From the NCBI GenBank assembly GCA_013203595.1, contig JABMNT010000183.1, forward strand, positions 1 to 35,536: a stretch of 35,536 nt of DNA, read 5' to 3'. A program made the translations under genes and the position numbers. The stretch is from Rhodospirillales bacterium. GTDB taxonomy: Bacteria; Pseudomonadota; Alphaproteobacteria; Rhodospirillales; Casp-alpha2. The stretch's first letter is position 1. Each line of letters starts with the position of its first letter. Below are positions 827 to 29,958 of the stretch, piece by piece. The notes under the pieces were generated by a model that saw only the letters and a list, made by a program, of their open reading frames with translations, searched no databases and had not been told where the DNA came from.

Positions 827-836
827 GTGTTCCCCC

Positions 837-1430: not shown

Positions 1431-1438
1431 GGAAAGCC

Positions 1439-1891
1439 TTAATCGTTGACCTTCTTGATCACCAGGGACGCGCCTTTGCTGCCGACCACTTTTACCCGGC
1501 TTCCGGCCGGCATGTCGGGGCCATTGATTTTCCATTCGCCGTCGCCGACGGGCATTTTTCCGGTGCCGTTGGTGATCGGGCTGTCGAGGGTGAAAGTCTG
1601 GCCGATATATTGCGCACCGCGCTGGTTGAGCAGAGGATTGGCACTTTCCTGCGGGTGGCGTTTCAGCCACAGGCGCCCGCCAAATCCGGAAATCACCGAC
1701 AGACAGGCGAAGCCGACCAGCTGCAAATTCCAGTCAAGGCCGGGAACCGCCAGCAAAACCGCGCCGACAGCCGCGGCACCGAGACCCAGCCACAGGAAAA
1801 TCATGCCCGGTGCCAGGGTTTCCAGAATGACCATGGCGATGGCCAGAATCCACCAATGCCAGAACACCAGAGAATCGAGAAATGATACCAT
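1439..1891 (-). CDS. NfeD-like membrane protein
   Basis: This 150-residue protein starts with two or three hydrophobic segments (about residues 8-35 and 38-75), including WHWWILAIAMVILET and the small-residue run GLGAAAVGAVLL. A soluble C-terminal beta domain of OB-fold type follows (GQTFTLDSPITNGTGKMPVGDGEW, then PAGSRVKVVGSKGASLVI). This is the short NfeD1b form, which lacks the protease domain. Such proteins partner with SPFH/stomatin proteins in membrane microdomains. The adjacent upstream gene on the same strand is exactly such a protein, with 6 bases between them. The GGAG just before the nfeD start lies at the end of the SPFH gene, which suggests translational coupling. Confidence 0.9.
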   Translation of the reverse strand: MVSFLDSLVFWHWWILAIAMVILETLAPGMIFLWLGLGAAAVGAVLLAVPGLDWNLQLVGFACLSVISGFGGRLWLKRHPQESANPLLNQRGAQYIGQTFTLDSPITNGTGKMPVGDGEWKINGPDMPAGSRVKVVGSKGASLVIKKVND

Positions 1892-1897
1892 GAACGC

Positions 1898-2872
1898 CTA
1901 CTCCTTTTTCCCCCAGGGTTGCACCGCACCGCCATCGCCGTCCTTGCTGAAGGCTTCCTTCGCCAGTTCGGCAATGCCGGCAACGCTTCCCAGGATGCCG
2001 GTGACTTCCATGGGCAGCATGATCACTTTCTGGTTGTTGGCCGCGGCAATCTTGCCCAGGGCGTCGACGTATTTTTGCGCAATGAAGTAGTTGATGGCCT
2101 GCACGTTGCCGCCGGATATGGCATCGGAAACCATGGTCGTGACTTTGGCCTCGGCTTCGCCTTCCCGCTCGCGGGCTTCGGCGTCCCGGTAGGCGGCCTC
2201 GCGGCGGCCTTCGGCTTCCAGAATGGCCGACTGCTTTTCCCCTTCGGCTTTCAGGATCTCGGCCTGGCGGAAGCCTTCGGCTTCGAGAATATTGGCCCGC
2301 TTGTCGCGTTCAGCCTTCATCTGGCGGGCCATGGAATCGACCAGATCTCGGGGCGGCGAAATATCCTTGATCTCGATCCGGGTGACCTTCACCCCCCAGG
2401 GGTCGGTGGCCTTGTCGACCACGTCAAGCAACTGGTTGTTGATGGTATCGCGCTGCGACAGCAATTCGTCGAGATCCATGGAGCCCATGACGGTGCGGAT
2501 ATTGGTCATCGTTAAATTGAGGATCGCCAGTTGCAGATTGTTCACCTCGTAGGCGGCCTGGGAGGCTTCAATAATCTGGAAAAACACCACACCATCGACC
2601 TGCACCATGGCATTGTCCTTGGTGATCACTTCCTGCGAAGGCACATCGAGCACCTGTTCGCGCATGTTCAGTTTGTAGCCGATGCGGTCAACGACCGGGA
2701 TAATCAGATGCAGGCCCGGTCGCAGTGTCTTGGTGTAGCGGCCAAACCGCTCTACCGTATATTCCATGCCCTGGGAAACGGTTTTGATTCCCATTAAAAC
2801 CAGCAGGATTCCTAAAAAGGCGAAAAAGAATGAAAAAATTTCGACGGCACCGATGCCCGATAAAAAGCCCAT
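1898..2872 (-). CDS. SPFH/Band 7 (stomatin-like, QmcA type) membrane protein
   Basis: The product is 324 residues from the preferred ATG at 2872. That start is preceded by GGAAGGAA and gives an N-terminal membrane anchor ([17 protein letters not shown]). An in-frame start 33 bases upstream is possible but adds a charged tail. The Band 7 domain follows ([15 protein letters not shown]-like stretch, [38 protein letters not shown]). After it comes a long Ala/Glu-rich helical region with repeated ILEAEG/ILKAEG units, typical of flotillin and stomatin coiled coils. These proteins form membrane-bound oligomeric rings that organise microdomains and influence membrane proteases. It forms an operon with the nfeD-like gene downstream. 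Confidence 0.93.
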
Positions 2873-3030
2873 AATGTGTTCCTTCCCAAAAAGGGGTTCC
2901 AGCAAACCCGGTTGTTATTTCGCTGTTGTTTTATACCCTCTACTTACAGTTAGCGCGCCGGCCCGGCCCTGCAATGAGATTGCGATCGTAAACATAACAT
3001 GAACGTTGCCGGTTTGCCTACGGTGCCGCC

Positions 3031-4533
3031 TCAGTCCTTGGATTCCGTCTGATTTGTCAATGCCGCCTGCTCCTGGACTTCCTCCGCATCGCCTTCAATC
3101 AGGTCGCCGCGTTCGTGTTCGGTGAAATCGAAGGTCGGTACATGACCGGGCAATCGTTTGTGGCGGTTGGACTGGACCCCGTAGGAAACCAGTTTCTGAA
3201 CCCGCGGCAGCAGGCGTTTGTTAATGCTGCCGGTCAGGTCATTGTAGGATTTTGCCGCCGTCTTCAGGCCTTTGCCGACATTCACGGTTTTTTCGACAAT
3301 GACGCCGATGCTTTCGACAATCATCTGCGCACCCTCGACAATGCGTTCCTGGTTTTCCGACTGGCGTTCCACATCAAGCTGCACCCGGGCCATGCCGATC
3401 AGGCAGTTAAGGGCGGCGGGCCCGGCCAGGGTGATCTGCAGTTTGCTGGCTTTTCTGTGAAACTGCGGATCGGCGATGGAGACCTTTTCGATGGCCCCTT
3501 CGTTGGGCAGATACATGATGCTGAACACCTGCGGTGTGCCCTGCATGCGTCCTGATTCCTTGTAACTGGCGACCACTTCGGCCTTGTAGTTCTTGTCGGC
3601 GAGGCCCTTCAAATGGCCGTTCATGGTTTTCGCCAGATTGGCATAGGCAATGGATTGTTGCTGTTCATCTTCGGCCTCGGCCAGATCGAGCAGAAATTTC
3701 GACGCCTTGCTGTCGATCACCAGAACCGTATTGCCGGGCAGGAACACCAGGGCGTCGGGCCGCAGGCGTTTCGAATCGAGCTGCTGCTGAACAACGAAGT
3801 CGCGGCCCTTGACCAGGCCAAACGAGGTCAGGGTGTTTTCCAGGCCGATCTCCGAATACTGGCCGGCCCCACCGGGGCTGGACAGGGCGCGCATCACCGT
3901 ATCCATGGTATTGCGGTTGCTGGTCACGTCGGAATTGAGGGCGTGGATGTTCTTGTTCACTTCGGTGATCGAATGGACAAGATGCTCGGTGGTTTTGCGG
4001 ACCTGTTCCTCGGACTGTTTCTTGGCCTCGTCCGACTGCCGTTTGTGATCGTCCAGTAGTTTCGATGACAATTCCCGGGCACTGGCCAGCGTTGCCGACT
4101 TGGCTGCCGTGATCGCCTCGATTTTCATGGTCTCGACAATCTGCATGCGTTCCGTATGGGCTTCGCGTTCCTTGTCCAGTTCCGTGCGCAGGATGGCGTT
4201 TTGCCGCTCGGCCTCGGTTTTCTGCTGGGCCAGCTCGGTTATGTGGATCAGTTGCGCCGCGTTATCCTGCTGCAATCGGTTCACCTGGTTTTCGAAATGG
4301 CGGTTTTGACTCTCCAGCTCGACCCGACCCAGTTGCAGTTGCTGCAGGTCCTTTTGCGCCGCATCGATTTCCCCTTCCAGGGTGATTTCCATCTGGCTGG
4401 CCAGCAGAGCGGCGGCCTGCGCCTGTTGTTTGCTGTTTTTGTGCGCGACCAGACTGACGATAAGTGCGGCCACAGCGGCGATCAGGCTGACGCCAAGAAC
4501 CGAGATCAAAACGTCCGGATTTTCAATTACCAT
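3031..4533 (-). CDS. rmuC: DNA recombination protein RmuC homologue
   Basis: The product is about 500 residues from the ATG at 4533, which places a transmembrane anchor (VLISVLGVSLIAAVAALIVSL) right at the N-terminus as in other RmuC proteins. An open frame continues 60 bases upstream, so the start is not certain, and no strong ribosome binding site was seen. Residues about 30-190 form a Gln/Glu-rich coiled coil. The RmuC domain follows, with the nuclease-like core RLRPDALVFLPGN and VLVIDSKAS (Asp and D-x-K of a PD-(D/E)xK-type fold) and a late GMARVQLDVERQSENQERIV stretch. The family limits inversions at short inverted repeats in E. coli. It stands alone here, divergent from the DUF4139 gene. 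Confidence 0.93.
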   Translation of the reverse strand: MVIENPDVLISVLGVSLIAAVAALIVSLVAHKNSKQQAQAAALLASQMEITLEGEIDAAQKDLQQLQLGRVELESQNRHFENQVNRLQQDNAAQLIHITELAQQKTEAERQNAILRTELDKEREAHTERMQIVETMKIEAITAAKSATLASARELSSKLLDDHKRQSDEAKKQSEEQVRKTTEHLVHSITEVNKNIHALNSDVTSNRNTMDTVMRALSSPGGAGQYSEIGLENTLTSFGLVKGRDFVVQQQLDSKRLRPDALVFLPGNTVLVIDSKASKFLLDLAEAEDEQQQSIAYANLAKTMNGHLKGLADKNYKAEVVASYKESGRMQGTPQVFSIMYLPNEGAIEKVSIADPQFHRKASKLQITLAGPAALNCLIGMARVQLDVERQSENQERIVEGAQMIVESIGVIVEKTVNVGKGLKTAAKSYNDLTGSINKRLLPRVQKLVSYGVQSNRHKRLPGHVPTFDFTEHERGDLIEGDAEEVQEQAALTNQTESKD

Positions 4534-4640
4534 TGCATGTGCCACATTTAAGCCAAATCCTTGTCTCAGTCTGAGGATAGAAACTTGCCCCAAGGGGTTG
4601 AGAAACGCAAACGAGAGAACAGGATCGCCAGGAACCGATT

Positions 4641-6059
4641 ATGAAAAACAGCTTTGCCTTGTCTATATGCATGTCCTGTCTGCTGGCCGCCAGCGGGGTT
4701 CGGGCCGATGTCGTGTCAATTGGAGAGGGCCAACGCAGTGGTCTTGGTGTGACCCTTTACAGCAACGGAACGGCGCTGATAGAAGATGCCCGGGTTGCCC
4801 AATTACCCTTGGGAAACAACATACTAGAGTTTTCATCCGTGAGCCCGCAGATGCTTGCCGAATCGGCCCAACTGATTGCGGACCCGGCATTTGCGGTCAT
4901 CGAACAGGGGTTTTTGCCGGCAAATCTGAGTCAGACCGAGCTGTTGAAAGCCTATCTGGGCAAGTCCGTGAAGGTGGTTAAAACCCACCCGACGACCGGT
5001 GAGGACTCCGTCCATGACGCGCTGGTGATTGCCGCCGTGCCCCAGTTAATGCTGCGAATCGATGGCCAGATCGAAACCACGGTTCCCGGGCGCCTGGTTT
5101 TCCCGGTCATCCCGGCCAGTCTGCGGGCCAACCCGGTTTTTCGCGCCGTCGGTCAGGCCAATGCGGCGGCACGGACAACGCTGCGCCTGCAGTATCTGGC
5201 CGCTGGCCTGTCCTGGCAGGCCGATCATGTGGCCACCTTCGACGAGACGTCAGGGCGCCTGCAGCTGCAGACATGGGCGACCCTGGTCAATACCAGCGGG
5301 CTTGATTTGATCAGCAGCCGCATGCAACTGGTTGCCGGACAGGTCAATCAGCTGACCTCGCCATCCGCCCCAAGGCCGCTGCAACGCCTGTTGAAGGCGG
5401 AGTCCATGGCCATGGCAGATACGGCGGCACCGCCTTCGCGGCAAAGTCTCGAGGGCTATCATCTCTATTCACTGAACAGGCCCGTTGACCTGTTCGATAA
5501 CCAGCGCAAGCAGATCCCCCTGTTGCCGCTCCAGCAGTTGCCGGCGAAACGCCAGCTTGTCGGCAGTTTTCAGCCCAATATGTATGGCCAGGATGCGTCC
5601 AGCCAGCCCAGCCATCCGCAGATTCAGATCACATTCACAAACGACGGGGCGGGCGGGGCAAAGCAGCCGCTTCCGGGCGGCATTATCCGGCTTTACGGAG
5701 CCGATCAACAGCAGGTCACGCAGTTTCTGGGTGAAGACCGGCTCGATAATCTGCCGGTTGGTGAACGTGCCGAGATCGCCGTCGGCCAGGCGTTCGATGT
5801 GACCATACGCCATAAGCAGGTTGATTTTAAACGCGAAGTGATGGGCCGCAACAGCTTCGAGGTGGCTTTCACCGTTGAGGTCCTGAATGGCAGTGAACGG
5901 ACGGAGACGGTTAAGGTCAATGAGCTGATAACCGGCGACTGGAGCTTTGCCGAAGACAAGACGGCCTTTGTCCGCGACGGAAACCAGGCCGTCTGGGAGG
6001 TCGAGGTGCCGGCTGGCGGCACGGTGACAGCCGGCTACCGGGTTCGCCTTCGTCGCTGA
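4641..6059 (+). CDS. Secreted DUF4139 domain protein
   Basis: This 472-residue protein has a classical signal peptide (MKNSFALSICMSCLLAASGVRA, likely cut after VRA). A beta-rich region with VTLYSNGTALIEDARVAQLPLGNN is followed by the core LQYLAAGLSWQADHVATFDE, ATLVNTSGLDL and MQLVAGQVN. These are hallmarks of DUF4139, found in proteins loosely called mucoidy inhibitor A-like. The C-terminal third (EIAVGQAFDVTIRHKQVDFKRE to GGTVTAGYRVRLRR) has the usual paired beta-strand ending. Export to the periplasm is inferred from the signal peptide. The biochemical function of the family is not established. It appears to be a single-gene unit between rmuC and def. Confidence 0.85.
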   Translation: MKNSFALSICMSCLLAASGVRADVVSIGEGQRSGLGVTLYSNGTALIEDARVAQLPLGNNILEFSSVSPQMLAESAQLIADPAFAVIEQGFLPANLSQTELLKAYLGKSVKVVKTHPTTGEDSVHDALVIAAVPQLMLRIDGQIETTVPGRLVFPVIPASLRANPVFRAVGQANAAARTTLRLQYLAAGLSWQADHVATFDETSGRLQLQTWATLVNTSGLDLISSRMQLVAGQVNQLTSPSAPRPLQRLLKAESMAMADTAAPPSRQSLEGYHLYSLNRPVDLFDNQRKQIPLLPLQQLPAKRQLVGSFQPNMYGQDASSQPSHPQIQITFTNDGAGGAKQPLPGGIIRLYGADQQQVTQFLGEDRLDNLPVGERAEIAVGQAFDVTIRHKQVDFKREVMGRNSFEVAFTVEVLNGSERTETVKVNELITGDWSFAEDKTAFVRDGNQAVWEVEVPAGGTVTAGYRVRLRR

Positions 6060-6075
6060 TTCTGGCTTGTTCCGC

Positions 6076-6104
6076 TTGACGCAAGGCACCTGTGACCTTA
6101 TGTC
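6076..6104 (+). promoter_or_regulatory. Candidate promoter for def-fmt
   Basis: TTGACG at 6076-6081 is separated by 17 bases from TATGTC at 6099-6104. The -35 box matches the consensus at five of six positions; the -10 box is weak (three of six). Placement 31 bases ahead of the def start is sensible, with an AAGGAA ribosome binding site between them. Confidence 0.4.
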
Positions 6105-6134
6105 GAGGGCGTTGTCAGGTAAGGAACAGAGTTT

Positions 6135-6668
6135 ATGGCCCTATTGCCAATCATTGTCGCACCAGATCCGCGATTGAAAATCAAGGCGGAAGCCGTCGAC
6201 CAGGTCGACGACGAGCTGCGTGCGTTCATGCACGATATGCTGGAGACCATGTATGCGGCGCCCGGTATTGGTCTTGCCGGGCCGCAGGTTGGCCTTGGTA
6301 AACGCGTGATCGTCGTTGATGTGCGTGAAAACGCCGAGGATGACGGCGCACCAAATCCCTATTGCATGGTCAACCCGCAGATTATTGAAGTCTCCAGGGA
6401 AGACCGCATTCATGATGAAGGCTGCCTGTCCCTGCCCGATCAATATGCCGAAGTGGAACGCCCCGATTCAATCCGGGTCCGCTATACCGACGAAAACAAC
6501 ACCGTCCAGGAACTGGATGCCGACGGCCTGCTGGCGACCTGCATCCAGCATGAGATTGACCATCTCGACGGAATTTTGTTTGTCGACCACATAACCGCAC
6601 TCAAGCGCAAAATGATTTTACGCAAGCTGACGAAAATCAAGAAACTGGCCGAACGCGAATCGGCATAG
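6135..6668 (+). CDS. def: Peptide deformylase
   Basis: This 177-residue metalloenzyme removes the formyl group from nascent N-terminal methionine. All three motifs are present: GIGLAGPQVG (motif I), EGCLSLPD (motif II, with the metal Cys) and QHEIDHLDG (motif III, the HExxH that supplies two metal His and the catalytic Glu). Motif I reads A-G-P-Q where A-A-P-Q is most common, a conservative change. The start is fixed by AAGGAA ten bases upstream. The stop codon TAG is followed directly by the ATG of fmt, so the enzymes that add and remove the formyl group are translated from one mRNA. Confidence 0.97.
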   Translation: MALLPIIVAPDPRLKIKAEAVDQVDDELRAFMHDMLETMYAAPGIGLAGPQVGLGKRVIVVDVRENAEDDGAPNPYCMVNPQIIEVSREDRIHDEGCLSLPDQYAEVERPDSIRVRYTDENNTVQELDADGLLATCIQHEIDHLDGILFVDHITALKRKMILRKLTKIKKLAERESA

Positions 6669-7601
6669 ATGTCGGCACTGCGGCTCATCTTCATGGGAAC
6701 GCCGGATTTCTCGGTTCCCGTACTGGAACGGCTGATCGCCGCCGGACATGATATTGTCTGTGTCTATTCCCAACCCCCACGTCCGGCCGGTCGCGGCCAG
6801 AAACAGACCCCGACACCGGTTCATGCCTGTGCAGAGCGCCATGGCATTGAGGTGCGGACGCCGAAGTCCTTTGCCGCAGATGACGTGCGCCGGGATTTTC
6901 TCAGCCTGAACGCCGATGCCGCGGTTGTTGTCGCCTATGGATTAATTTTACCGAAACTCGTGCTGGCCGGCCCCCGGCTTGGCTGCATCAACATTCATGC
7001 GTCGCTGCTGCCGCGCTGGCGCGGTGCCGCACCGATCCAGCGGGCGATCATGGCCGGAGATACACAATCGGGAATAACCATCATGCAGATGGATGAAGGG
7101 CTGGATACCGGCGACATCCTGGCGATGGAAAAAATCGAATTGCCGCCAGACATCACCGCGACGGAATTGCACGATCAGTTGTCAACCATCGGTGCCGACC
7201 TGATCGTGGCAACGCTGGACGATGTGGCGGCAGAGCGGATTACGCCGCTCAGCCAGCCATCGGCAGGCGCCATCTATGCGGCCAAGATCGACAAGGCCGA
7301 AGGCCGCATTGACTGGCGCAAACCGGCGTCAGCGATTGACCGCCTGGTCCGGGCCCTGACGCCATGGCCCGGTGTCTGGTTTGTGCACGATGGCGAACGC
7401 ATAAAAATATTCAACCTGTCCGTGGTCGATGACGGCTCCGGTGCAAAGCCCGGCACGGTTCTCGACAACCATCTGAAAATTGCCTGTGGCGACGGCGCCG
7501 TCGTTATCAATGAATTGCAGCGGCCGGGCAAAAAGCGGGCCGCGTCTGCCGAGGTATTGCGGGGCTATACGATTGCCGCCGGGACGCTTCTTGCCGGCTA
7601 G
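6669..7601 (+). CDS. fmt: Methionyl-tRNA formyltransferase
   Basis: The 310-residue product is of normal length. The N-terminal formyltransferase domain opens with LRLIFMGTPDFSVPVLE. It carries the folate-binding and catalytic region HASLLPRWRGAAPIQRAI, with the conserved N-x-H of NIHASLLP, and DEGLDTGDI. A C-terminal OB-like domain contains DWRKPASAIDRLVRALTPWPG. It formylates initiator Met-tRNA using 10-formyl-tetrahydrofolate. It follows def with no gap. Its stop codon is separated by one base from the stop of the opposing gene, so read-through between the convergent transcripts seems likely unless Rho acts. Confidence 0.97.
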   Translation: MSALRLIFMGTPDFSVPVLERLIAAGHDIVCVYSQPPRPAGRGQKQTPTPVHACAERHGIEVRTPKSFAADDVRRDFLSLNADAAVVVAYGLILPKLVLAGPRLGCINIHASLLPRWRGAAPIQRAIMAGDTQSGITIMQMDEGLDTGDILAMEKIELPPDITATELHDQLSTIGADLIVATLDDVAAERITPLSQPSAGAIYAAKIDKAEGRIDWRKPASAIDRLVRALTPWPGVWFVHDGERIKIFNLSVVDDGSGAKPGTVLDNHLKIACGDGAVVINELQRPGKKRAASAEVLRGYTIAAGTLLAG

Positions 7602-21074: not shown

Positions 21075-21479
21075 TTAAAAACCGATGGTTCCGTTTTCTT
21101 CTATGGTGACAGCCTGTCCGTTCTGCAAGGCATCCGCGGCGACCTGCAGAATCGGTATGGTCGGATACCCCATTTCCCCGGCGACCAGGTCGCCTAATAC
21201 CAGAATGGCGTCGATTTCGGTCATTAAAATGGCTTTCGGTCCGATCTTTTTATAAAGAAGCTCCAACAGCACCGCACTCGACGAGCTCGAACCGATCATT
21301 GCCGGTAGCAGCAAAATCCGCTGTGAAATGCAAATGCCACGGTTTGGATGATCATGCTGAATGATCTCTGCGGTTTGCGGACTGACGCCGCCCCAGAAAC
21401 TGACGGCGGCATCGAGCCGCAGAACAACGCCCTGGGCGCGGCCTGCGACCAGGACCCGGGCTTTTACTGATCCTGCCAT
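21075..21479 (-). CDS. Aconitase X small (swivel) subunit, DUF126
   Basis: This 134-residue protein has the swivel-domain pattern of aconitase X: VLVAGRAQGVVLRLDAAVSFWGGVSP, HPNRGICISQRILLLPAMIGSSSSS and EIDAILVLGDLVAGEMGYPTIPI. The Ser-rich GSSSSS loop binds substrate in the family. Its start lies 16 bases inside the end of the large-subunit gene, so the two are translationally coupled. In many bacteria the two domains are fused; here they are separate. With hydroxyproline genes beside it, the likely reaction is dehydration of cis-3-hydroxy-L-proline to pyrroline-2-carboxylate. This is inferred from context and known homologues. Confidence 0.88.
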   Translation of the reverse strand: MAGSVKARVLVAGRAQGVVLRLDAAVSFWGGVSPQTAEIIQHDHPNRGICISQRILLLPAMIGSSSSSAVLLELLYKKIGPKAILMTEIDAILVLGDLVAGEMGYPTIPILQVAADALQNGQAVTIEENGTIGF

Positions 21480-22723
21480 AATCCTGGATTCCGTGTAATT
21501 TTTCCACTGACGGCAGAATCAACACAATCTGCCAGCGAGCCGAAAACTGACTGATAGCCGGTGTTGCCCGGGCCATAATGGGCGAACTTGGCGGAATTGG
21601 TCATCATCACGCCGCCTTTTCCCCTGAGGATGGGGGCAACGGCAACGCAGGTATCGATGACCAGTTCAATGCCGGCCCGGGCCAGGGCTTCCAGCAAGCC
21701 TTCCTGCTCGAGTTTATGCAGCACGAAGCGATTGGTGCAGACATAAAACGGGACCCGCGATGATCTGCCGGCGAGCGTCGTCAATAAGGCGCGGGTTTCC
21801 GCATATGAAAAATGCGGACTGCCAAGGGCGACGCAGTCCAGCTGACTGCCGGTCTGCTGGCTCAGGCGGTCCCGCTCTCGGCGGAAGTCCTGGAGCGTGG
21901 GTTTCAGGGTTTCGGCGCAGGGATTTCCGCCCAGGGCATCGGCCAGGGTTGCGGCTTCCGGTGTCTGTCCGACAATATGAAACATGCCGACGGCCCCGGT
22001 TGAGGCCGCACCGGCGCCGAGGGCCTTGAGATGGTCTTCCGCAACCGGTGCCTCGAACCCGGTGAGGGCGGGGACCGATGCGCCGGCATGGCGGCCCAGC
22101 CAGGAACCCAGAACCGGGAAAAAACTTTCCGATGATTTGAGTGCTCCCGGCAGTCCGCTAAGATCAATGACCAGATTGGCATGGCGGTTCTCGGGCCTGT
22201 GCAGTCCGGTGTAGGGGGCTCGGCCACTCAATGCCAGGCAGATATCCAGTAAATCGCCGTAGCGATTGGTGCGCGCCCCAAGCACGGAATTGGCAAAGAC
22301 AACCGCGTTACTCTCTCCCCATGCCACATTCTCGCCCAGCCCCGGGCGATGGCCCGTCTGGTAAGGCGCGCAGGTCCAGCTGGCCTGACAGCCGAGATCC
22401 AGATAGGCCTGCATTTGGCGTTTTGCCATGGATCTGTGGTGCGTACCGGCCTGTACCAGGTGCGGGTGAATGAGATCCAGCGCGCCCACATTCAAGGTCG
22501 CAGGGATGGCGACCCTGCCGCCCAGCTGAACCAGTTTTTCCGCAAAAAAGACACCGCTGTCGCCCAGATACAGACAGCCGTCAATATGCGCCGACGCGAC
22601 CGCAATTAACCGCGATGCCCCTAAAATTTCTGCCGTGGCGACAAGGATTCGCATGGCCATTGCCAGGGCTGGTTGGCTTTCGTCAACCAGCACACGCTTT
22701 TCGGTTTCACTTAAGTGAAGCAT
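21464..22723 (-). CDS. Aconitase X large (catalytic) subunit, DUF521
   Basis: This 419-residue protein belongs to the aconitase X family: LVATAEILGASRLIAVASAHIDGCLYLG near the start, then CVALGSPHFSYAETRALL, FYVCTNRFVLHKL, and IDTCVAVAPIL followed by TNSAKFAHYGPGNTG. The conserved Cys residues in these segments are the expected iron-sulfur or metal ligands. Known bacterial members act as cis-3-hydroxy-L-proline dehydratases; archaeal ones act on phosphomevalonate. The divergent hypD-hypO-hypE genes favour the hydroxyproline reaction. The pyrroline-2-carboxylate reductase needed to complete that route to proline is not in the window. Confidence 0.9.
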   Translation of the reverse strand: MLHLSETEKRVLVDESQPALAMAMRILVATAEILGASRLIAVASAHIDGCLYLGDSGVFFAEKLVQLGGRVAIPATLNVGALDLIHPHLVQAGTHHRSMAKRQMQAYLDLGCQASWTCAPYQTGHRPGLGENVAWGESNAVVFANSVLGARTNRYGDLLDICLALSGRAPYTGLHRPENRHANLVIDLSGLPGALKSSESFFPVLGSWLGRHAGASVPALTGFEAPVAEDHLKALGAGAASTGAVGMFHIVGQTPEAATLADALGGNPCAETLKPTLQDFRRERDRLSQQTGSQLDCVALGSPHFSYAETRALLTTLAGRSSRVPFYVCTNRFVLHKLEQEGLLEALARAGIELVIDTCVAVAPILRGKGGVMMTNSAKFAHYGPGNTGYQSVFGSLADCVDSAVSGKITRNPGLWQDQ

Positions 22724-22816
22724 GGATCAGTATAGACGCCAAAACCGAGCCATTGCACGTCCATCAATCATGGGTAAGCTGGCATCCGGTGTCAGAACAG
22801 AGAAAGGAATGGACAG

Positions 22817-23713
22817 ATGGCGGTCGCATGGAGCGGAGTATTTCCGGCATTGATGACGGAATTTACCAGAGACGGAAGCCTCGATCTGGACGCCACCCAA
22901 CGCCATATTCAGTCGTGCCTGGACGCGGGCATCGAAGGGTTGGTGATGTTGGGGACGCTCGGTGAAAACAGCTCGCTCAGTGCCGATGAAAAAGCCGCCG
23001 TGCTGAAAGCCGCGGTTGAAGTCTGTGCCGGGCGCATACCGGTGTTGTCCGGGGTTGCCGAGTATACGACCGAACTGGCAATTGCCCATGCGGCGCGGGC
23101 CCGCGAGGCGGGCTGTGAAGGTCTGATGGTTCTGCCAAGCATGGTCTACCAGCAGGACCAGCGCGAAGGCCGGGCCCATTTTGAAGCGATCGCCGCTGCC
23201 ACGGATCTGTCGATTATGATTTACAACAATCCGGTTTCCTACAAGCTCGACATGACACCGGCCAGCTTCGTTGCCATGGCGGCTGCTGAAAATATCGTTG
23301 CGGTCAAGGAATCGTCCCATGACAGCCGTCGCATCACTGATATGATCAACGCTTGCGGAGACCGCTATCTGATGTTTTGCGGGGTTGATGATCTGGTCCT
23401 TGAAAATCTGATGTTTGGTGCCGTCGGCTGGGTGTCGGGTTTGGTTAATAGCTTCCCGAAGGAAGCGGTGGCGCTGTATGCTTACGCGAAAGCCGGAAAA
23501 ATTGACCAGGCCCTGGCGCTCTATCGCTGGTTCATGCCCCTGCTGCATCTCGATGTGGATGTGAAGCTGGTGCAATATATCAAACTGGCCAACCAGATGA
23601 CCGGCGAAGGTGCTGAATGGGTGCGCCGGCCGCGCATGGAATTGATTGGCGATGAACGGGCAAAGGTCATGAGCCTTGTTCAGACGGCGCTCGATACCCG
23701 GCCAGCTATTTAA
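22817..23713 (+). CDS. DHDPS/NAL-family lyase, probable HypD (pyrroline-4-hydroxy-2-carboxylate deaminase)
   Basis: This 298-residue TIM-barrel protein is of the dihydrodipicolinate synthase family. The Schiff-base Lys is at about residue 164 in VAVKESS, and the Tyr of IMIYNNP is at about 136, the positions used across the family. LGTLGENSSLS carries the substrate-carboxylate loop. The true dapA role is unlikely, because the gene is embedded between aconitase X and D-hydroxyproline dehydrogenase genes. There the family member deaminates pyrroline-4-hydroxy-2-carboxylate to 2-oxoglutarate semialdehyde. The ATG of the next gene follows its stop after one base. AAAGGAA precedes the start. Confidence 0.85.
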   Translation: MAVAWSGVFPALMTEFTRDGSLDLDATQRHIQSCLDAGIEGLVMLGTLGENSSLSADEKAAVLKAAVEVCAGRIPVLSGVAEYTTELAIAHAARAREAGCEGLMVLPSMVYQQDQREGRAHFEAIAAATDLSIMIYNNPVSYKLDMTPASFVAMAAAENIVAVKESSHDSRRITDMINACGDRYLMFCGVDDLVLENLMFGAVGWVSGLVNSFPKEAVALYAYAKAGKIDQALALYRWFMPLLHLDVDVKLVQYIKLANQMTGEGAEWVRRPRMELIGDERAKVMSLVQTALDTRPAI

Positions 23714-23714
23714 C

Positions 23715-24968
23715 ATGGCTCCAACTAAAGGCGAAACACTGGTTATCGGTGGTGGGATCATCGGGTTGGCCTGTGCCTTTTTTCTGCACCGCCAGGGGCG
23801 GGCTGTCCGGGTTATACATGCGGTTGGCCTTGATGAAAGTACGTCGTGTGGCAATGCCGGCGGGATCGCGGCGGCGGAAGTGTTGCCGCTGTCCGGTCCC
23901 GGAGTTCTGTTGAATACGCCGAAATGGCTTATTGATCCGCTCGGGCCGCTGAGTATTCGCACCGCCCATATCCCCCGGCTGCTGCCCTGGTTCTGGCGGT
24001 TTATAGGCGCCTGCACCGTCGAGAAGCGCCGTTATCTGGCCCAGGCCATGGCCACTTTGCTGGGTACGGCGCTTGCAGATCACGAGGCGGTTCTGGACGC
24101 CACCAGGCTGTCTCATCTGGTCGCCAAAAAAGGTGCCTTGTTTGTCTACAAAAGCCGCTCGGGTCGCCACGCGAGCCAGCCGGACTGGGACCTGCGGCGC
24201 GACTGCGGGGTTCAGTTCGAGCCGCTGGAGCGGGCCGGCCTGCTGGAATTCGAGCCCGCCCTCGGGCCGCTGGCCGCCTGTGGCTACCGAACCGAAGACT
24301 GGGCCCATTACCGGGACCCGGCGGAACTGGTGGTCGAACTGGCGGCCTATCTGAAGGCCGCCGGGGTGCAGTTCGAGCAGGCCGAAGTCGATGAAATGCG
24401 CTGCCAGGAAGGCAACGCCCGGGGCGTTAAGCTGACAACCGGAAGAATTATTGATGCTGATCACATCGTTGTCGCCGCCGGCGCCTGGTCGGCCCGGCTG
24501 TCAAGGCAACTGGGCGATCCGGTTTCGCTTGAATCAGAGCGTGGATACAATACGACCCTTGCGCAGCCGCATATCGAAGTGCGTTCATTCGTCACCTTTT
24601 CCGAGGATTATTTTGTGATGACGCCCATGCGCATGGGGCTGCGGATCGGCGGCGCCGTCGAATTTGCTGGCTTGCAGGCTCCGCCCAACTACAACCGGGC
24701 CAGGGCCCTGCTGCGTCTGGCCAAAACCTACCTGCCGGATCTGCATACGGAAGGCGGCAGCGAGTGGATGGGGCACCGTCCGTCGACGCCGGACTCGGTA
24801 CCGGTGATCAGCCCGGCGCAGCATTACAGCAATGTGTTTTACGCATTTGGGCACGGCCATCTGGGCCTGACCGGCAGCATGACGACCGGGCGGCTGATCG
24901 CCGATCTGGTGGCCGGCGTGCCCGTGGACGTGGATTTGAGCCCCTTTCATATTAAACGGTTTTCCTGA
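23715..24968 (+). CDS. FAD-dependent D-amino acid dehydrogenase, probable D-hydroxyproline dehydrogenase
   Basis: The product is 417 residues from the ATG at 23715, which directly follows the previous stop; an upstream start would overlap that gene by 38 bases. The dinucleotide-binding motif VIGGGIIGLACAFFLHRQG lies at the N-terminus. TSCGNAGGIAAAEVLPL is the second flavin contact, and a C-terminal FYAFGHGHLGLTGSMTTGRL closes the FAD site, as in DadA-type proteins. It would oxidise cis-4-hydroxy-D-proline to pyrroline-4-hydroxy-2-carboxylate, the substrate of the HypD-like gene before it. The electron acceptor is unknown. A generic D-amino acid dehydrogenase cannot be excluded by sequence alone. 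Confidence 0.85.
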   Translation: MAPTKGETLVIGGGIIGLACAFFLHRQGRAVRVIHAVGLDESTSCGNAGGIAAAEVLPLSGPGVLLNTPKWLIDPLGPLSIRTAHIPRLLPWFWRFIGACTVEKRRYLAQAMATLLGTALADHEAVLDATRLSHLVAKKGALFVYKSRSGRHASQPDWDLRRDCGVQFEPLERAGLLEFEPALGPLAACGYRTEDWAHYRDPAELVVELAAYLKAAGVQFEQAEVDEMRCQEGNARGVKLTTGRIIDADHIVVAAGAWSARLSRQLGDPVSLESERGYNTTLAQPHIEVRSFVTFSEDYFVMTPMRMGLRIGGAVEFAGLQAPPNYNRARALLRLAKTYLPDLHTEGGSEWMGHRPSTPDSVPVISPAQHYSNVFYAFGHGHLGLTGSMTTGRLIADLVAGVPVDVDLSPFHIKRFS

Positions 24969-24984
24969 GACAGCGGACAGAGCC

Positions 24985-25986
24985 ATGGCGCGACATACCT
25001 TTAGCTGCATCGATGCCCATACCTGCGGGAACCCGGTCCGGGTCGTCGCCGACGGCGGGCCAGTGCTTGCCGGTGCCACCATGATTGAACGGCGCCAGCA
25101 TTTTCTGGCTGAATTTGACTGGGTGCGCAGGGCCCTGATGTTCGAGCCGCGTGGCCATGAGGTGATGTCCGGCAGTATTCTCTACCCGTCGACCCGCGAT
25201 GACTGCGACATTGCGCTTTTATTCATTGAAGTCAGTGGCTGCCTGCCGATGTGCGGCCATGGCACCATCGGTACGGTTACCGTGGCCATCGAGCAGGGTC
25301 TGGTCACGCCAAAAACCCCGGGTCTTTTGCGTCTTGATACGCCAGCCGGCGTTGTTGAAGCCCACTACGTCATGGACGGCGCGCATGTTGACCGGGTGCG
25401 GATCCGCAATATCGCGTCCTATCTGCATGCGGCGGATGTGTCCGTTGAGGTGCCGGGATTAGGAGAAATCCGGGCCGACGTCGCCTATGGCGGCAATTTT
25501 TATGCGATCATCGAAGCGCAGGAGAATTTTCGCGATATGGCGGATCTGTCGCCGGGTGAAATCCAGCGCTTCAGTCCCCTGATCCGGGACCGCATAAACC
25601 AGGCCTACAGCTTCATCCATCCGCAGCACCCGGCCATTTGCGGCCTGTCTCATGTGATGTGGACGGGCCAGCCTCTGGCCGCCACAGCAACGGCACGCAA
25701 TGCCGTGTTCTATGGTGATAAAGCCATTGACCGCTCCCCCTGCGGTACCGGCACCTCGGCCCGCATGGCCCAGTGGGCGGCCCGGGGTGATCTGGTCGAG
25801 GGCCAGGACTTCGTCCACGAAAGCATTATCGGAAGCCAGTTCTCCGGTCGCATTGAAGCCAGGTCCCGGGTCGGGGATTATGACGCGATTATTCCGTCCA
25901 TCGAAGGCTGGGCCCGCATCCACGGCCTCAACACCATTTTCGTCGACGACCGCGACCCCTTTGCGCACGGGTTTCTGGTCACTTGA
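24985..25986 (+). CDS. 4-hydroxyproline 2-epimerase (proline racemase family)
   Basis: This 333-residue protein has both active-site cysteines of the proline racemase family: C90 in PMCGHGTIG and C253 in DRSPCGTGTSARMA. Having Cys at both positions indicates a racemase/epimerase; in the related trans-3-hydroxyproline dehydratase the second Cys is replaced. An N-terminal IDAHTCGNPVRVV and late GQDFVHESIIGSQFSGRIE match 4-hydroxyproline epimerases. It would convert trans-4-hydroxy-L-proline to cis-4-hydroxy-D-proline, the entry step for the two genes upstream. It starts 16 bases after them. No transporter or regulator accompanies the cluster. Confidence 0.92.
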   Translation: MARHTFSCIDAHTCGNPVRVVADGGPVLAGATMIERRQHFLAEFDWVRRALMFEPRGHEVMSGSILYPSTRDDCDIALLFIEVSGCLPMCGHGTIGTVTVAIEQGLVTPKTPGLLRLDTPAGVVEAHYVMDGAHVDRVRIRNIASYLHAADVSVEVPGLGEIRADVAYGGNFYAIIEAQENFRDMADLSPGEIQRFSPLIRDRINQAYSFIHPQHPAICGLSHVMWTGQPLAATATARNAVFYGDKAIDRSPCGTGTSARMAQWAARGDLVEGQDFVHESIIGSQFSGRIEARSRVGDYDAIIPSIEGWARIHGLNTIFVDDRDPFAHGFLVT

Positions 25987-26718: not shown

Positions 26719-26747
26719 TTGACAGGCTGATGATCAATGAATACATT
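26719..26747 (+). promoter_or_regulatory. Promoter of the SMP-30 operon
   Basis: Perfect TTGACA at 26719-26724 is followed after 17 bases by TACATT at 26742-26747 (four of six to the -10 consensus). The expected transcript start lies about 23 bases before the ATG, leaving room for the AGGATGAG ribosome binding site. This is the clearest promoter in the window. Confidence 0.65.
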
Positions 26748-26760
26748 AATGTATACGTTA
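26741..26760. promoter_or_regulatory. Palindromic operator overlapping the -10 box
   Basis: ATACATTAATGTAT (26741-26754) is a perfect 14-base palindrome covering the -10 box. It overlaps a second imperfect one, TAATGTATACGTTA (26747-26760, 12 of 14). The TGTATAC core resembles operators of GntR-family repressors of the FadR/VanR type. Repression by occlusion is inferred. No such regulator gene is in the window. Confidence 0.55.
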
Positions 26761-26776
26761 TTTAGGATGAGTTTCC

Positions 26777-27751
26777 ATGACACCGCGCCCCATCCCGATC
26801 AACGATTTGGCATTCATCGGTACCGGCCTGACCCGTCCGGAATGTGTCCTGGCGGTACGCTCCGGCCACCTCTGTGTTGCCGACTTCCGCGGCGGTGTCT
26901 CGATCATCCATCCCGACGGCAGGACGGAAACAGTTCTGGCCAGGAATACGGACTTTGTCCCCAAGCCCAACGGCATTTGCATTCAGCACGATGGCTCCTT
27001 TTTGCTGGCCCACCTGGGTGCAGAAGACGGTGGTGTTTATCATTTGCACCGTGATGGCCGGCTGCACCCCTATCTCCTGGAAATTGACGGCGAAGCCGTG
27101 CCACCGACCAATTATGTCCATCGCGACGGCCAGGGCCGGGTATGGGTCACGGTCAGTACCCGGCTTATCCCGCGCGCGCTCGGTTATCGTCACGACAATG
27201 CCGACGGCTTTATCATTCTCGTCGATGACCGGGGTGCCCGGATTGTCGCCGATGGTCTGGGCTATACCAACGAATGTGTGGTCCATCCCGATGGCCGCCA
27301 GCTTTATGTCAATGAAACCTTTCAAAAACGCCTGTCAAAATTCAATATCGCCGATGACGGAAGCCTGAGTAACAAATCAACCGTGGCGGATTTTGGAGCG
27401 GGCACTTTCCCCGACGGCCTGACCTTTGATGTTGAAGGCGGGGTCTGGATCACCAGTATTGTCAGCAACCGGGTTATTCGCATTGCCCCCGACGGGGAAC
27501 AGACACTGATCCTCGAAGATCACGATGCCGATCACACAGCCCAGGCAGAGGCTGCCTTTCAGGACGGGACCATGGGCCGGCCGCATCTCGATATTGCTTC
27601 CGGTCAGCGTCTGAAGAATATTTCCAGCCTGGCCTTTGGCGGGCAGGATTTGAAAACGGCCTATTTGGGCTGTTTGCTAGGTGATCAAATTGCAACCTTT
27701 TCATCGCCCATTGCCGGGCATCCGCCGAGCCATTGGGACGTCTCTTTTTAA
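26777..27751 (+). CDS. SMP-30/gluconolactonase family protein
   Basis: This 324-residue beta-propeller protein starts 7 bases after AGGATGAG. Family signatures include the early Glu in GLTRPECVLAV, PNGICIQHDGSFLLAHLG, PTNYVHRDGQGRVWVTVST, GYTNECVVHPDGRQLYVNET and FPDGLTFDVEGGVWITSI; Glu, Asn and Asp of these loops bind the divalent metal in known members. There is no signal peptide, so it is cytoplasmic. Members hydrolyse sugar-acid lactones. It is the first gene of an operon with a decarboxylating dehydrogenase and a Gfo/Idh/MocA oxidoreductase. That grouping suggests a sugar is oxidised to a lactone, opened, then further oxidised and decarboxylated. The substrate is unknown. Confidence 0.85.
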   Translation: MTPRPIPINDLAFIGTGLTRPECVLAVRSGHLCVADFRGGVSIIHPDGRTETVLARNTDFVPKPNGICIQHDGSFLLAHLGAEDGGVYHLHRDGRLHPYLLEIDGEAVPPTNYVHRDGQGRVWVTVSTRLIPRALGYRHDNADGFIILVDDRGARIVADGLGYTNECVVHPDGRQLYVNETFQKRLSKFNIADDGSLSNKSTVADFGAGTFPDGLTFDVEGGVWITSIVSNRVIRIAPDGEQTLILEDHDADHTAQAEAAFQDGTMGRPHLDIASGQRLKNISSLAFGGQDLKTAYLGCLLGDQIATFSSPIAGHPPSHWDVSF

Positions 27752-27774
27752 ATACAAATCCAAGGAACAGACTT

Positions 27775-28887
27775 ATGAACAACCAGAAAATATTTTCCAT
27801 CGCGGTGATGCCAGGCGACGGCATCGGTACGGAGATCATGTCCCCCTGCCTGGAAGTGATGGCGGCAGCCATGCAGCGAGTGGGCGGGATCGAGATGGAT
27901 TTCACGACCATCGAAGCCGGTGCCGGCTGTTACACCAAACATGGCGATGCCTTTCCCGAGGAATCCCGGAAAACTGCCACATCGGCAGATGCCATTCTGC
28001 TGGGTGCCATGGGATTGCCCTCCGTGCGCTATCCCAACGGCACTGAAATTGCGCCGCAGTTGGACCTGCGGTTTGATCTGGGCCTGTATGCCGGGGTCCG
28101 TCCGTTCCGCGCGGTTCCCGGAATTCCCATGGTGCTTGCCGATCCCAGAGCCAAGGATATCGATTTCGTCCTGATCCGCGAATCGACGGAAGGGCTGTTT
28201 GCGTCGCATGGCAAGGGCACCGTCGAAAACGACGAGACGGCCAGGGAAACCCTGGTCATCACGCGCAATGTCTCGGAACGGCTTTTCGACTTTTCATTCG
28301 ACCTTGCCCGCCAACGCAAGGCCAAAGGTGGAGAAGGCCGGGTCAGTTGCATCGACAAGGCCAACGTCTTCATGGCCTTCGCGTTCTTCCGCAAAATCTT
28401 TGACGAACGGGCGGCCCTGAACCCGGATATCGCTGCCGATCATGCCTATATCGATGCGACGGCGCTGAATATGGTTCGCAACCCGCTGGGCTTTGATGTG
28501 ATGGTTACGGAGAACATGTTTGGCGATATCCTGTCCGATCTGGGGGCCGCCCTGATCGGCGGCATGGGGATGGCGCCGTCTGCCGACATCGGTGACGACC
28601 ATGCGGTTTTCCAGCCCTGTCATGGCAGTGCCCCCGATATCATGGGCCAGGGCAAGGCCAATCCGACGGCCATGTTCATGTCGGGCGCGATGATGCTCGA
28701 CTGGCTCGGCAACAGCCATGGGGTGGGCGAATGCAACAAGGCCGCCGCCCTGCTGAACGCGGCCATCGACCATGCCTTTGGCGCCGGCCGCCTGATGCCG
28801 TTTGAACTGGGTGGTCAATCGGGCACTTCGCCGATTACCGATGCGGTGCTGGCCGCCGTTGACCAGATTGACCTGGCTTCACTTTAA
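27775..28887 (+). CDS. Isocitrate/isopropylmalate dehydrogenase family protein of unknown substrate
   Basis: The product is 370 residues from the ATG at 27775, preceded by AAGGAA. The fold signatures are complete: IAVMPGDGIGTEIM at the N-terminus, the metal-binding region VTENMFGDILSDLGAAL, and APSADIGDDHAVFQPCHGSAPDIMGQGKANPTAM. The substrate-specifying segments are unusual. LGLYAGVRPFRA replaces the usual L-D-L-Y-x-x-x-R-P form, and RESTEGLFASHG replaces the Tyr-containing TEGEY or TEGLY. It therefore should act on a 2-hydroxy (beta-carboxylated) acid other than isopropylmalate or isocitrate, perhaps a malate, tartrate or sugar-diacid derivative. It is not leuB by context. Confidence 0.85.
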   Translation: MNNQKIFSIAVMPGDGIGTEIMSPCLEVMAAAMQRVGGIEMDFTTIEAGAGCYTKHGDAFPEESRKTATSADAILLGAMGLPSVRYPNGTEIAPQLDLRFDLGLYAGVRPFRAVPGIPMVLADPRAKDIDFVLIRESTEGLFASHGKGTVENDETARETLVITRNVSERLFDFSFDLARQRKAKGGEGRVSCIDKANVFMAFAFFRKIFDERAALNPDIAADHAYIDATALNMVRNPLGFDVMVTENMFGDILSDLGAALIGGMGMAPSADIGDDHAVFQPCHGSAPDIMGQGKANPTAMFMSGAMMLDWLGNSHGVGECNKAAALLNAAIDHAFGAGRLMPFELGGQSGTSPITDAVLAAVDQIDLASL

Positions 28888-28911
28888 CGATCTCCAGTAA
28901 AGGCAGAGACC

Positions 28912-29958
28912 ATGCCCCGTCCCATCCGTGTTGCCGCCATCGGCATCGGTTTTTTCAGTCAGTTTCACCTGCAGGGATGGTCCGATATTGAAGATGCGGA
29001 CCTGGTTGCCCTGAGTTCGCGTGATCCCGACGCCCTGAACAGGGCGGCCGATACCTATGGGGTCGCCGGTCGCTATGGGGACCTGGAGACCATGCTGGAC
29101 CGGGAAAAGCCGGATCTGCTGGATATCATATCGCCGCCGTCAACCCATGCCGCCTTTATCCGCGCCGCCTTTGACCGGGATATTGCGGTTATCTGTCAAA
29201 AGCCGTTCACCACCAGCCTGGCTGAGGCGGAAGAAATGGCGGCTCTGTCCGAGGTCAGGCAACTGCCGCTTCTGGTGCATGAAAACTTCCGCTTTCAGCC
29301 CTGGTACCGGGAAATCAAGAACCGCCTGGATGCGGGTGAGCTGGGCGATCTCTACCAGATTACGTTTCGTTTGCGACCCGGCGACGGCCAGGGCCCTGGC
29401 GCCTATCTGGACCGCCAGCCCTATTTTCAGCAGATGGAGCGGTTTCTGGTGCATGAGACGGCGATCCATCAAATTGACGTGTTCCGCTACCTGTTCGGTG
29501 AAATTGACGGGGTCACAGCCCGGCTGGCAAAAATCAACCCGGTGATCGCCGGCGAGGATGCCGGACTGATCATCTTCGAATTTGCCAATGGCTGCCGGGG
29601 TTTGTTTGACGGCAACCGGTTGTCTGACCATATCGCTGACAACCGCCGCCTGACCATGGGTGAAGTGATCATCGAAGGCGCGAAGGGCACCCTTCGTCTT
29701 GACGGCAACGCTTGCCTGTATATGCGCAAGCATGGCGAAAACAGCGAGCGGCAGATCGCCTACCCATGGCGGGACCGGGGGTTTGGCGGCGATTGCGTGT
29801 ATTTGTACGAAAAACACGTGATCGCGCATTTACAAAATGCCGCCCCGGTCATGAACACGGCGCGGGCGTATTTGAAAAACCTGGCGATTGAAGAAGCGGT
29901 TTATCAGTCACAGGCAGAAAACCGCCATATAAGGCTGCGCGCAGGCTCCATTACGTGA
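28912..29958 (+). CDS. Gfo/Idh/MocA family oxidoreductase
   Basis: This 348-residue protein has an N-terminal Rossmann domain (VAAIGIGFFSQFHLQGW, with GIGFFSQ as a variant of GxGxxG) and SPPSTHAAFIRAAF. The family catalytic-lysine motif appears as CQKPF rather than the usual EKP. The C-terminal substrate domain contains HENFRFQPWYREIK, LVHETAIHQIDVFRYLFG (the H-x-x-D/H region of the active site) and GTLRLDG. Members are NAD(P)-dependent dehydrogenases of sugars, inositols and sugar acids. It is the third gene of the SMP-30 operon, 24 bases after the dehydrogenase, and may supply the lactone that the SMP-30 enzyme opens. Confidence 0.88.
   Translation: MPRPIRVAAIGIGFFSQFHLQGWSDIEDADLVALSSRDPDALNRAADTYGVAGRYGDLETMLDREKPDLLDIISPPSTHAAFIRAAFDRDIAVICQKPFTTSLAEAEEMAALSEVRQLPLLVHENFRFQPWYREIKNRLDAGELGDLYQITFRLRPGDGQGPGAYLDRQPYFQQMERFLVHETAIHQIDVFRYLFGEIDGVTARLAKINPVIAGEDAGLIIFEFANGCRGLFDGNRLSDHIADNRRLTMGEVIIEGAKGTLRLDGNACLYMRKHGENSERQIAYPWRDRGFGGDCVYLYEKHVIAHLQNAAPVMNTARAYLKNLAIEEAVYQSQAENRHIRLRAGSIT

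Follow-up and report, generated by a model that had tools for sequence, protein, structure and literature searches.

A lactonase, a Phe-type dehydrogenase and a Gfo/Idh/MocA enzyme belong to a conserved, apparently co-regulated module for a proposed variant of tetronate catabolism

Positions 26,777 to 29,958 of a 35,536-nucleotide stretch of DNA from a Rhodospirillales bacterium (contig JABMNT010000183.1 of assembly GCA_013203595.1; the whole stretch is called the window below) carry three genes, which encode an SMP-30/gluconolactonase-family lactonase, a dehydrogenase of the isocitrate/isopropylmalate family (Iso_dh) with phenylalanine at the position of the catalytic tyrosine (Phe-type), and a Gfo/Idh/MocA-family dehydrogenase. 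This trio belongs to a conserved and apparently co-regulated module, a proposed variant of tetronate catabolism whose dehydrogenase represents a new subfamily, and on balance we favor the reading in which it carries out the peripheral steps of a breakdown route that feeds into the tetronate pathway through OtnK and OtnC and ends at dihydroxyacetone phosphate (DHAP) and CO2. The likely substrate is a C4 sugar acid or an immediate precursor of one. A first-pass annotation of the window knew of no named pathway with exactly this trio, and a literature search at the level of titles and abstracts likewise returned no description of the module, i.e., of the trio with OtnK and OtnC.

The lactonase gene (26,777–27,751; 324 aa; PF08450, SGL/SMP-30, 92.5 bits), the dehydrogenase gene (27,775–28,887; 370 aa from the ATG at 27,775; PF00180, Iso_dh, 276.7 bits), a proposed tetronate dehydrogenase, and the Gfo gene (28,912–29,958; 348 aa; PF01408, 82.9 bits, with C-terminal domains PF22725/PF02894), a proposed aldofuranose 1-dehydrogenase, all lie on the forward strand with intergenic gaps of 23 and 24 bp. 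Ribosome-binding-like sequences were seen by eye ahead of the ORFs, including AAGGA before the ATG at 27,775. None of the three proteins reached a curated NCBIfam cut-off, and the lactonase had no NCBIfam match at E 1e-10. Conservation was followed in a class sample of 385 genomes, the genome of the window included, in which at most five candidates per genome were scored for each of the three proteins, so that absences are not firm. The thresholds were E ≤ 1e-60 for the dehydrogenase and the lactonase, E ≤ 1e-70 for Gfo and E ≤ 1e-100 for OtnK, and a genome was counted as Phe-type when its best dehydrogenase match had at least 50% identity. Dehydrogenase relatives were present in 42 genomes, 36 of them Phe-type, Gfo relatives in 20 and lactonase relatives in 17, and 18 of the 20 Gfo-positive genomes also had the Phe-type dehydrogenase. 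The two dehydrogenase genes lie within one stretch of at most 19 kb in 14 of the 18 genomes that have both, and all three genes are together in seven of the nine that have all three (the window's genome counted each time), a linkage which, being kept in so many genomes, is not due to chance. Relatives beyond the class sample were found in Sulfitobacter, Marinovum, two Ruegeria, Granulosicoccaceae, and betaproteobacterial and Desulfobacterales metagenome-assembled genomes (MAGs), so the trio or the dehydrogenase–Gfo pair is conserved in Alphaproteobacteria and beyond. The same strand, the short gaps and this linkage bear out the first-pass view of the three genes as one functional unit, and the co-occurrence in related genomes, whose absence had been named as grounds for doubting it, was found.

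The genomes that carry the trio genes also tend to carry OtnK, the 3-oxo-tetronate kinase. OtnK was found in 49 of the 385 class genomes, including 18 of the 20 Gfo-positive genomes (Fisher p 5e-16), 15 of the 17 lactonase-positive genomes (p 5e-13) and 27 of the 36 Phe-type genomes (p 1e-20), none of these p values being corrected for phylogeny. The genome of the window has one OtnK gene, on contig C240 (631 bits, cut-off 350), followed by OtnC (331 bits, cut-off 250) and then by an LsrG-like protein of the ABM fold. In addition, 35 module loci were assembled by homology thresholds set before the operator count reported below, and in 12 of these the Phe-type dehydrogenase and otnK occur together (L038, L044, L050, L055, L075, L077, L078, L079, L129, L131, L134 and L137). 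All 12 contain the ABM protein and a GntR regulator, and ten an OtnC-like protein; Gfo is present in eight (a ninth, in L129, at 41% identity) and SMP-30 in four. OtnI was found in none of the 12, and a search for LtnD in them returned only a 29% relative in L055. Against the same cut-offs, OtnK and OtnC scored 618 and 329 bits in L055, 573 and 273 in L129, 498 and 300 in L038, and 575 and 311 in L044; OtnK scored 568 in L077 and 527 in L134, and OtnC 321 in L079 and 289 in L075. The kinases of L050, L078, L131 and L137 were identified solely by tblastn to L055. In L055 itself ABM-OtnC-OtnK is divergent from SMP-Iso_dh-Gfo-GntR, and in L129, a Desulfobacterales MAG of the Thermodesulfobacteriota, all seven genes (Gfo, GntR, SMP-30, OtnK, OtnC, ABM and the dehydrogenase) lie at 736–7031 of one 8.4-kb contig, which suggests either horizontal transfer of the module as a unit or misbinning of the contig.

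A shared operator joins the trio to otnK within the genome of the window. The 15-mer AACGTATACATTAAT, upstream of otnK on C240, recurs inverted in the trio promoter; among 300 mononucleotide-shuffled pairs of two 80-bp promoter pieces, the longest shared word was 10. The palindrome AANGTATACNTT has three exact sites in the 4.58-Mb genome, in the trio promoter (26,748–26,759), in the otnK promoter (C240:29835) and inside a long ORF (C141:22288). Over the 35 module loci, 14 exact sites in 14 loci lie in the 18,364 bp upstream of module genes and one lies in the other 636,474 bp; the motif was first found in the window and C240, the window supplies one of the 14 sites, and some of the 14 loci are closely related (L043/L047; L052/L053). 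Eleven control palindromes of like composition had no site upstream of module genes. A one-mismatch site was present in five loci lacking the exact operator, among those examined. In this genome the trio and otnK-otnC-ABM would thus appear to be two operons under one AANGTATACNTT operator. An alternative palindrome, ATACATTAATGTAT, was rejected as the operator: it has two exact sites in the genome (the trio promoter and C276) and no site with up to three mismatches in the C240 stretch, and AANGTATACNTT is the better palindrome.

In the trio promoter the operator is a tandem at 26,736–26,759 on the forward strand, made up of AATGAATACATT (one mismatch) and AATGTATACGTT, the latter being the exact AANGTATACNTT site, with starts 12 bp apart at 26,736 and 26,748. 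It lies over and just past the −10 element of a sigma-70-like promoter, TTGACA-17-TACATT, found by promoter scan at 26,719–26,747 on the same strand with 10 of 12 matches. The single strong promoter proposed in the first-pass annotation is therefore present as a match, while its strength is unsupported, because the scan of the region gave two promoter-like sites against a mean of 1.8 in shuffles; the operator at 26,748–26,759 is the better signal upstream of the trio. A GntR gene occurs in 25 of the 35 module loci (its presence helped select a few), and the genome of the window has an orthologue (58% identity) on contig C30, one gene away from the D-erythronate dehydrogenase DenD (357 bits, cut-off 325) and with further dehydrogenase-type genes nearby (L224, 1–5594). 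Tandem one-mismatch operators stand at L224:5640 and 5652, about 45 bp upstream of the first start codon of this gntR, and the 12-bp tandem spacing is common to the trio promoter, this gntR and L078 (10383, exact; 10395, one mismatch). The AANGTATACNTT operator is most likely read by the C30 GntR protein.

The dehydrogenase is set apart by its family scores, its active site and its position in the tree. It fell short of the LeuB equivalog cut-off (230.9 < 353.2 bits), of the tartrate dehydrogenase model TIGR02089 (TTC; 260.8 < 470.4 bits), of the homoisocitrate model NF040626 (284.7 < 540 bits) and of the isocitrate dehydrogenase models among the NCBIfam matches listed, which agrees with the earlier judgment that it is not leuB, icd or a clear tartrate dehydrogenase. 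An alignment of 138 Iso_dh sequences was numbered by the isopropylmalate dehydrogenase (IPMDH) of T. thermophilus; translations below 300 aa were dropped (L070 included), L005 and L008–L037 were skipped as superseded, and the rows include one gene twice (L004, L086) plus near-copies. Phe142 of the window dehydrogenase (codon 28,198–28,200) occupies the position of Tyr139, where 80 rows have Tyr and 58 Phe, and Phe stands there in all 36 Phe-type class genomes. We take Tyr139 to be the general acid that gives the proton in the decarboxylation half-reaction, and Arg94, Arg104, Arg132, Lys185, Asp217, Asp241 and Asp245 to be the catalytic set of the beta-decarboxylating hydroxyacid dehydrogenases. 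The first six of these are invariant in the 138 rows, the seventh is Asp in 136 and Glu in two (L139, L049), and the window dehydrogenase keeps them as R99, R109, R135, K195, D227, D251 and D255. A loss of Arg104, suggested by pairwise alignment, was rejected when the multiple alignment with checked numbering kept this residue. The altered substrate loops quoted in the first-pass annotation are present, Phe142 being the more informative change.

For the tree, the position-139 column was excluded and 93 rows were used: 53 of the 58 Phe rows, after removal of near-copies, and a hand-picked 40 of the 80 Tyr rows. A Phe clade with SH-aLRT support of 99 contains 52 Phe rows, all but one of the 53, and none with Tyr; the remaining 41 rows are the 40 Tyr rows and L150, from a Planctomycetota MAG, which gained Phe independently. 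The DmlA/TtuC group (support 100), made up of E. coli DmlA, two annotated TtuC, a paralogue from C124 of the window's genome and three further rows, is separate from the Phe clade, and another paralogue from this genome, encoded on C233, clusters with E. coli LeuB. DmlA and TtuC resemble the window dehydrogenase in fold family, NAD site and the Arg/Lys/Asp active-site set, but the latter differs by the Tyr-to-Phe change, the separate clade and an identity of 36–38%. Loss of the catalytic Tyr favors plain dehydrogenation, whereas the kept Arg residues point the opposite way. The first-pass proposal of oxidation with decarboxylation is probably wrong, given Phe in 52 of 52 clade rows and OtnC, itself a decarboxylase in the proposed route, in 10 of 12 modules, with the same Arg residues on the other side of the balance. 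A literature search on the role of the family's catalytic Tyr found no relevant paper.

Other relatives of the dehydrogenase were also seen. At C87:44022-45895 (L086) of the genome of the window, a Tyr-type paralogue (44% identity) is divergent from a second GntR gene (39% to the module GntR); the pair may be a sister system that retains the usual catalytic Tyr. L139, from a Pseudomonas MAG, is a distant Phe-type relative with a ketopantoate-reductase-like gene and a TRAP binding protein beside the dehydrogenase, and L049 is a further distant Phe-type relative.

The LsrG-like ABM protein also follows the dehydrogenase. In 19 loci its gene is no more than 5 kb from that of the Phe-type dehydrogenase, and in seven the two are immediate neighbors (at most 63 bp, same strand), gaps being measured between tblastn match ends rather than gene ends. 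Six of these seven loci contain neither Gfo nor SMP-30 in the stretch examined, so the ABM protein is tied to the dehydrogenase and not to the lactone; five of the six have an aldehyde dehydrogenase. In one genome (G335) the ABM gene stays with the trio, and OtnK is found elsewhere with LtnD and OtnI. Module ABM proteins are annotated only as 'putative quinol monooxygenase', 'antibiotic biosynthesis monooxygenase' or hypothetical. The L055 protein scored 40 bits against the LsrG model (cut-off 135), and the protein from the window's genome matched the structure 3qmq at E 8e-8, behind 2omo and 8ecp. Across 16 module ABM proteins 18 residues are invariant; E. coli LsrG shares 11 of them, eight of which are polar or charged (S29, E33, D39, Y53, E54, Y56, H65 and H70). 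The module proteins differ from LsrG in their 21–29% identity, the L055 score below the cut-off and their genomic context. LsrG, of the ABM fold, is annotated as an isomerase (P-DPD isomerase) and shifts a carbonyl along a hydroxyketone. Because such a shift is what OtnI does to 2-oxo-tetronate, the ABM protein is proposed in the place of OtnI.

The best solved relative of the Gfo protein is 5uhw (E 1.8e-47, residues 5–342), presumably a D-apiose dehydrogenase (ApsD). D-apiose pathways with ApsD, ApnL, ApnO, OiaK and other enzymes were reportedly described by Carter in 2018; they are alike in that a Gfo/Idh/MocA enzyme makes a lactone from a tetrofuranose-type sugar and a lactonase follows, and no Iso_dh-family enzyme is known to us in them. 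Membership in these pathways was rejected, as the kinase of the window's genome, the only one compared, scores as OtnK (631 > 350 bits) and far below the OiaK cut-off (150 < 700 bits). The front end of the module varies: in L038, L039, L075, L079, L134, L137 and L143 a lactonase-like protein of the metallo-beta-lactamase fold was present and no SMP-30 relative was found, and five Rhizobiaceae loci (L043, L044, L047, L050 and L131) have an aldehyde dehydrogenase and neither Gfo nor a lactonase. Two kinds of lactonase and an aldehyde dehydrogenase alternative would fit a front end that converts an aldose to an aldonate. The same Rhizobiaceae loci (L044, 2594–13527) hold a version with an ABC sugar transporter, an SDR and a HAD hydrolase, and an exact operator stands upstream of the transporter genes in four of the five, with one mismatch in L050. 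Gfo relatives of 47–52% identity also occur on plasmids (L040–L042), with no dehydrogenase or OtnK in the stretches examined, beside thiamine-pyrophosphate enzymes, cupins and sugar-phosphate-isomerase genes, which gives the Gfo clade a second context.

In the route that we propose, the Gfo/Idh/MocA enzyme would oxidize C1 of a small aldofuranose (either a tetrose or a closely related branched sugar of the apiose type) to the lactone, which the SMP-30 protein would open to the aldonate, a tetronate; this order of Gfo, lactonase and dehydrogenase, already given in the first-pass annotation, is chemically sensible. The Phe-type dehydrogenase would then oxidize a hydroxyl of the tetronate to give 2-oxo-tetronate without decarboxylation, and the ABM protein, probably in place of OtnI, or OtnI itself, would move the carbonyl from C2 to C3. 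OtnK would convert the resulting 3-oxo-tetronate to its 4-phosphate, and OtnC would decarboxylate this to DHAP and CO2. In the L-threonate pathway as outlined in PMC12540250, LtnD gives 2-oxo-L-threonate, OtnI the 3-oxo form, OtnK the phosphate and OtnC DHAP, and the same source mentions a later-described bypass that omits OtnI; D-erythronate enters through DenD as 2-oxo-tetronate, according to the account in PMC10580937. The module shares OtnK and OtnC, as judged by NCBIfam equivalog models, with the L-threonate and D-erythronate pathway, and the proposed end product is again DHAP, but it uses an Iso_dh-family enzyme and an ABM protein instead, with no OtnI in the 12 modules, and adds Gfo and a lactonase, or an aldehyde dehydrogenase, in front. 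In L133, a short contig of a Pseudolabrys MAG, an OtnI/Hyi-like gene (41%) adjoins the Phe-type dehydrogenase (462–2385), a pair that fits oxidation at C2.

A number of observations weigh against this route or against parts of it. The three carboxylate-binding Arg, present in 138 of 138 rows, suit a dicarboxylate substrate and possibly a decarboxylation. OtnK was not found at threshold in 9 of the 36 Phe-type, 2 of the 20 Gfo-positive (G064, 68% complete, and G197) and 2 of the 17 lactonase-positive genomes (G041 and G203). Many Phe-type dehydrogenases lie apart from the module, and the neighbors of the copy in G194 (L052, 10 proteins), whose gene order recurs in G287 (L053), and of six other Phe-type loci (10 proteins) showed nothing coherent. 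A FucA-like aldolase replaces OtnC in L077 and L078 (73 and 83 bits, below the OtnC cut-off of 250). The ABM protein was present in 17 of 28 OtnK genomes, and an OtnI/Hyi-like protein in all 28 genomes examined (two in the genome of the window, on C67, 47%, and C195, 41%), so the ABM protein need not be the isomerase; the OtnI search is non-discriminating, since Hyi-like proteins match. As to the operator, reversing the AANGTATACNTT pattern yields four exact sites in the genome; the count of three is hence unremarkable and the placement is what stands out, and the exact operator was not found in 21 of the 35 module loci. With one mismatch allowed, no operator was found upstream of otnK in 23 stretches of other genomes without the trio, nor upstream of Gfo or SMP relatives in nine stretches where these are separated from the dehydrogenase. 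The operator therefore goes with the module, not with otnK as such.

The kept Arg, Lys and Asp residues are one reason to consider that the dehydrogenase might catalyze both oxidation and beta-decarboxylation of a branched C5 dicarboxylic sugar acid, for example 2-C-hydroxymethyl-tartrate, formed from a carboxylated apiose-like furanose by Gfo and the lactonase. With the Tyr missing, the enediol would be released unprotonated to the ABM protein and tautomerized to 3-oxo-tetronate for OtnK. Such a scheme would draw further support from the ABM gene adjoining Iso_dh in seven loci and resembling the carbonyl-shifting LsrG, from the Gfo relative 5uhw, presumably a D-apiose dehydrogenase, and from the presence of TRAP/TTT binding proteins for acid transport in 8 of the 35 module loci. 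We nevertheless consider it unlikely, for loss of the Tyr speaks more simply against decarboxylation, OtnC already provides one, and no abundant nutrient of this kind is known to us; that a subfamily discarded its general acid and left an LsrG-like protein to finish the cycle from the enediol, a split between two proteins serving an unrecognized branched sugar nutrient, is a slightly slimmer chance. The same acid transporters and the Arg residues for two carboxylates would also suit oxidation at C3 of a pentaric acid (xylarate or arabinarate), made as an aldarate by Gfo and the lactonase from a uronate-like precursor, with loss of one carboxylate to reach the OtnK substrate, 3-oxo-tetronate, in a single step. 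This is decidedly improbable, as known members of the family oxidize a carbinol alpha to a carboxylate, which this one would not be, the ABM protein would have no role, and the loss of Tyr would go unexplained.

The link to OtnK and OtnC could instead be a shared habit of sugar-acid users, the substrate being something else, such as pantoyl lactone or a tartrate- or malate-type acid. The Phe-type genomes without OtnK and the Phe-type genes apart from the module agree with this, but the operator common to the trio and otnK, the single-locus modules in distant phyla and the OtnK genes of nearly all Gfo-positive genomes (18 of 20) make it improbable. A merely divergent tartrate or D-malate dehydrogenase is a very remote prospect: the superfamily is the same and TIGR02089 was the third-best NCBIfam match, but the score is below the cut-off of that model, the catalytic Tyr is absent, and the DmlA/TtuC group (100) and the Phe clade (99) are separate. 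Clustering with characterized tartrate or D-malate dehydrogenases, which the first-pass annotation had named as a refutation of its own reading, did not appear.

The trio is flanked by genes on the opposite strand, upstream by a PAS_5 gene and downstream by a superoxide-dismutase-like gene (named by sequence reading, with no model). Beyond the PAS_5 gene lies a hydroxyproline catabolic block (21,464–25,986) with a 4-hydroxyproline epimerase (586 bits, cut-off 376), an aconitase-X-like gene (by sequence reading), and DHDPS-family and D-amino-acid-dehydrogenase-like genes. A tie between the trio and this block was rejected, as the opposite-strand PAS gene intervenes and the three hydroxyproline proteins had no match in the trio loci save for a DAO-type match (37%) in L059.

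If the proposed route is true, the module would be a further entry to four-carbon sugar-acid catabolism beside the LtnD and DenD routes, and it would give a function to a dehydrogenase clade present in 36 of 385 class genomes and to the ABM family; should the enediol scheme hold instead, the ABM protein would represent a new enzyme function. Since the operator is shared, the regulon is open to direct testing, and a limited panel of C4 and branched C5 compounds could identify the substrate. The Phe clade is also a natural test of the role of the conserved Tyr in the isocitrate and isopropylmalate dehydrogenases.

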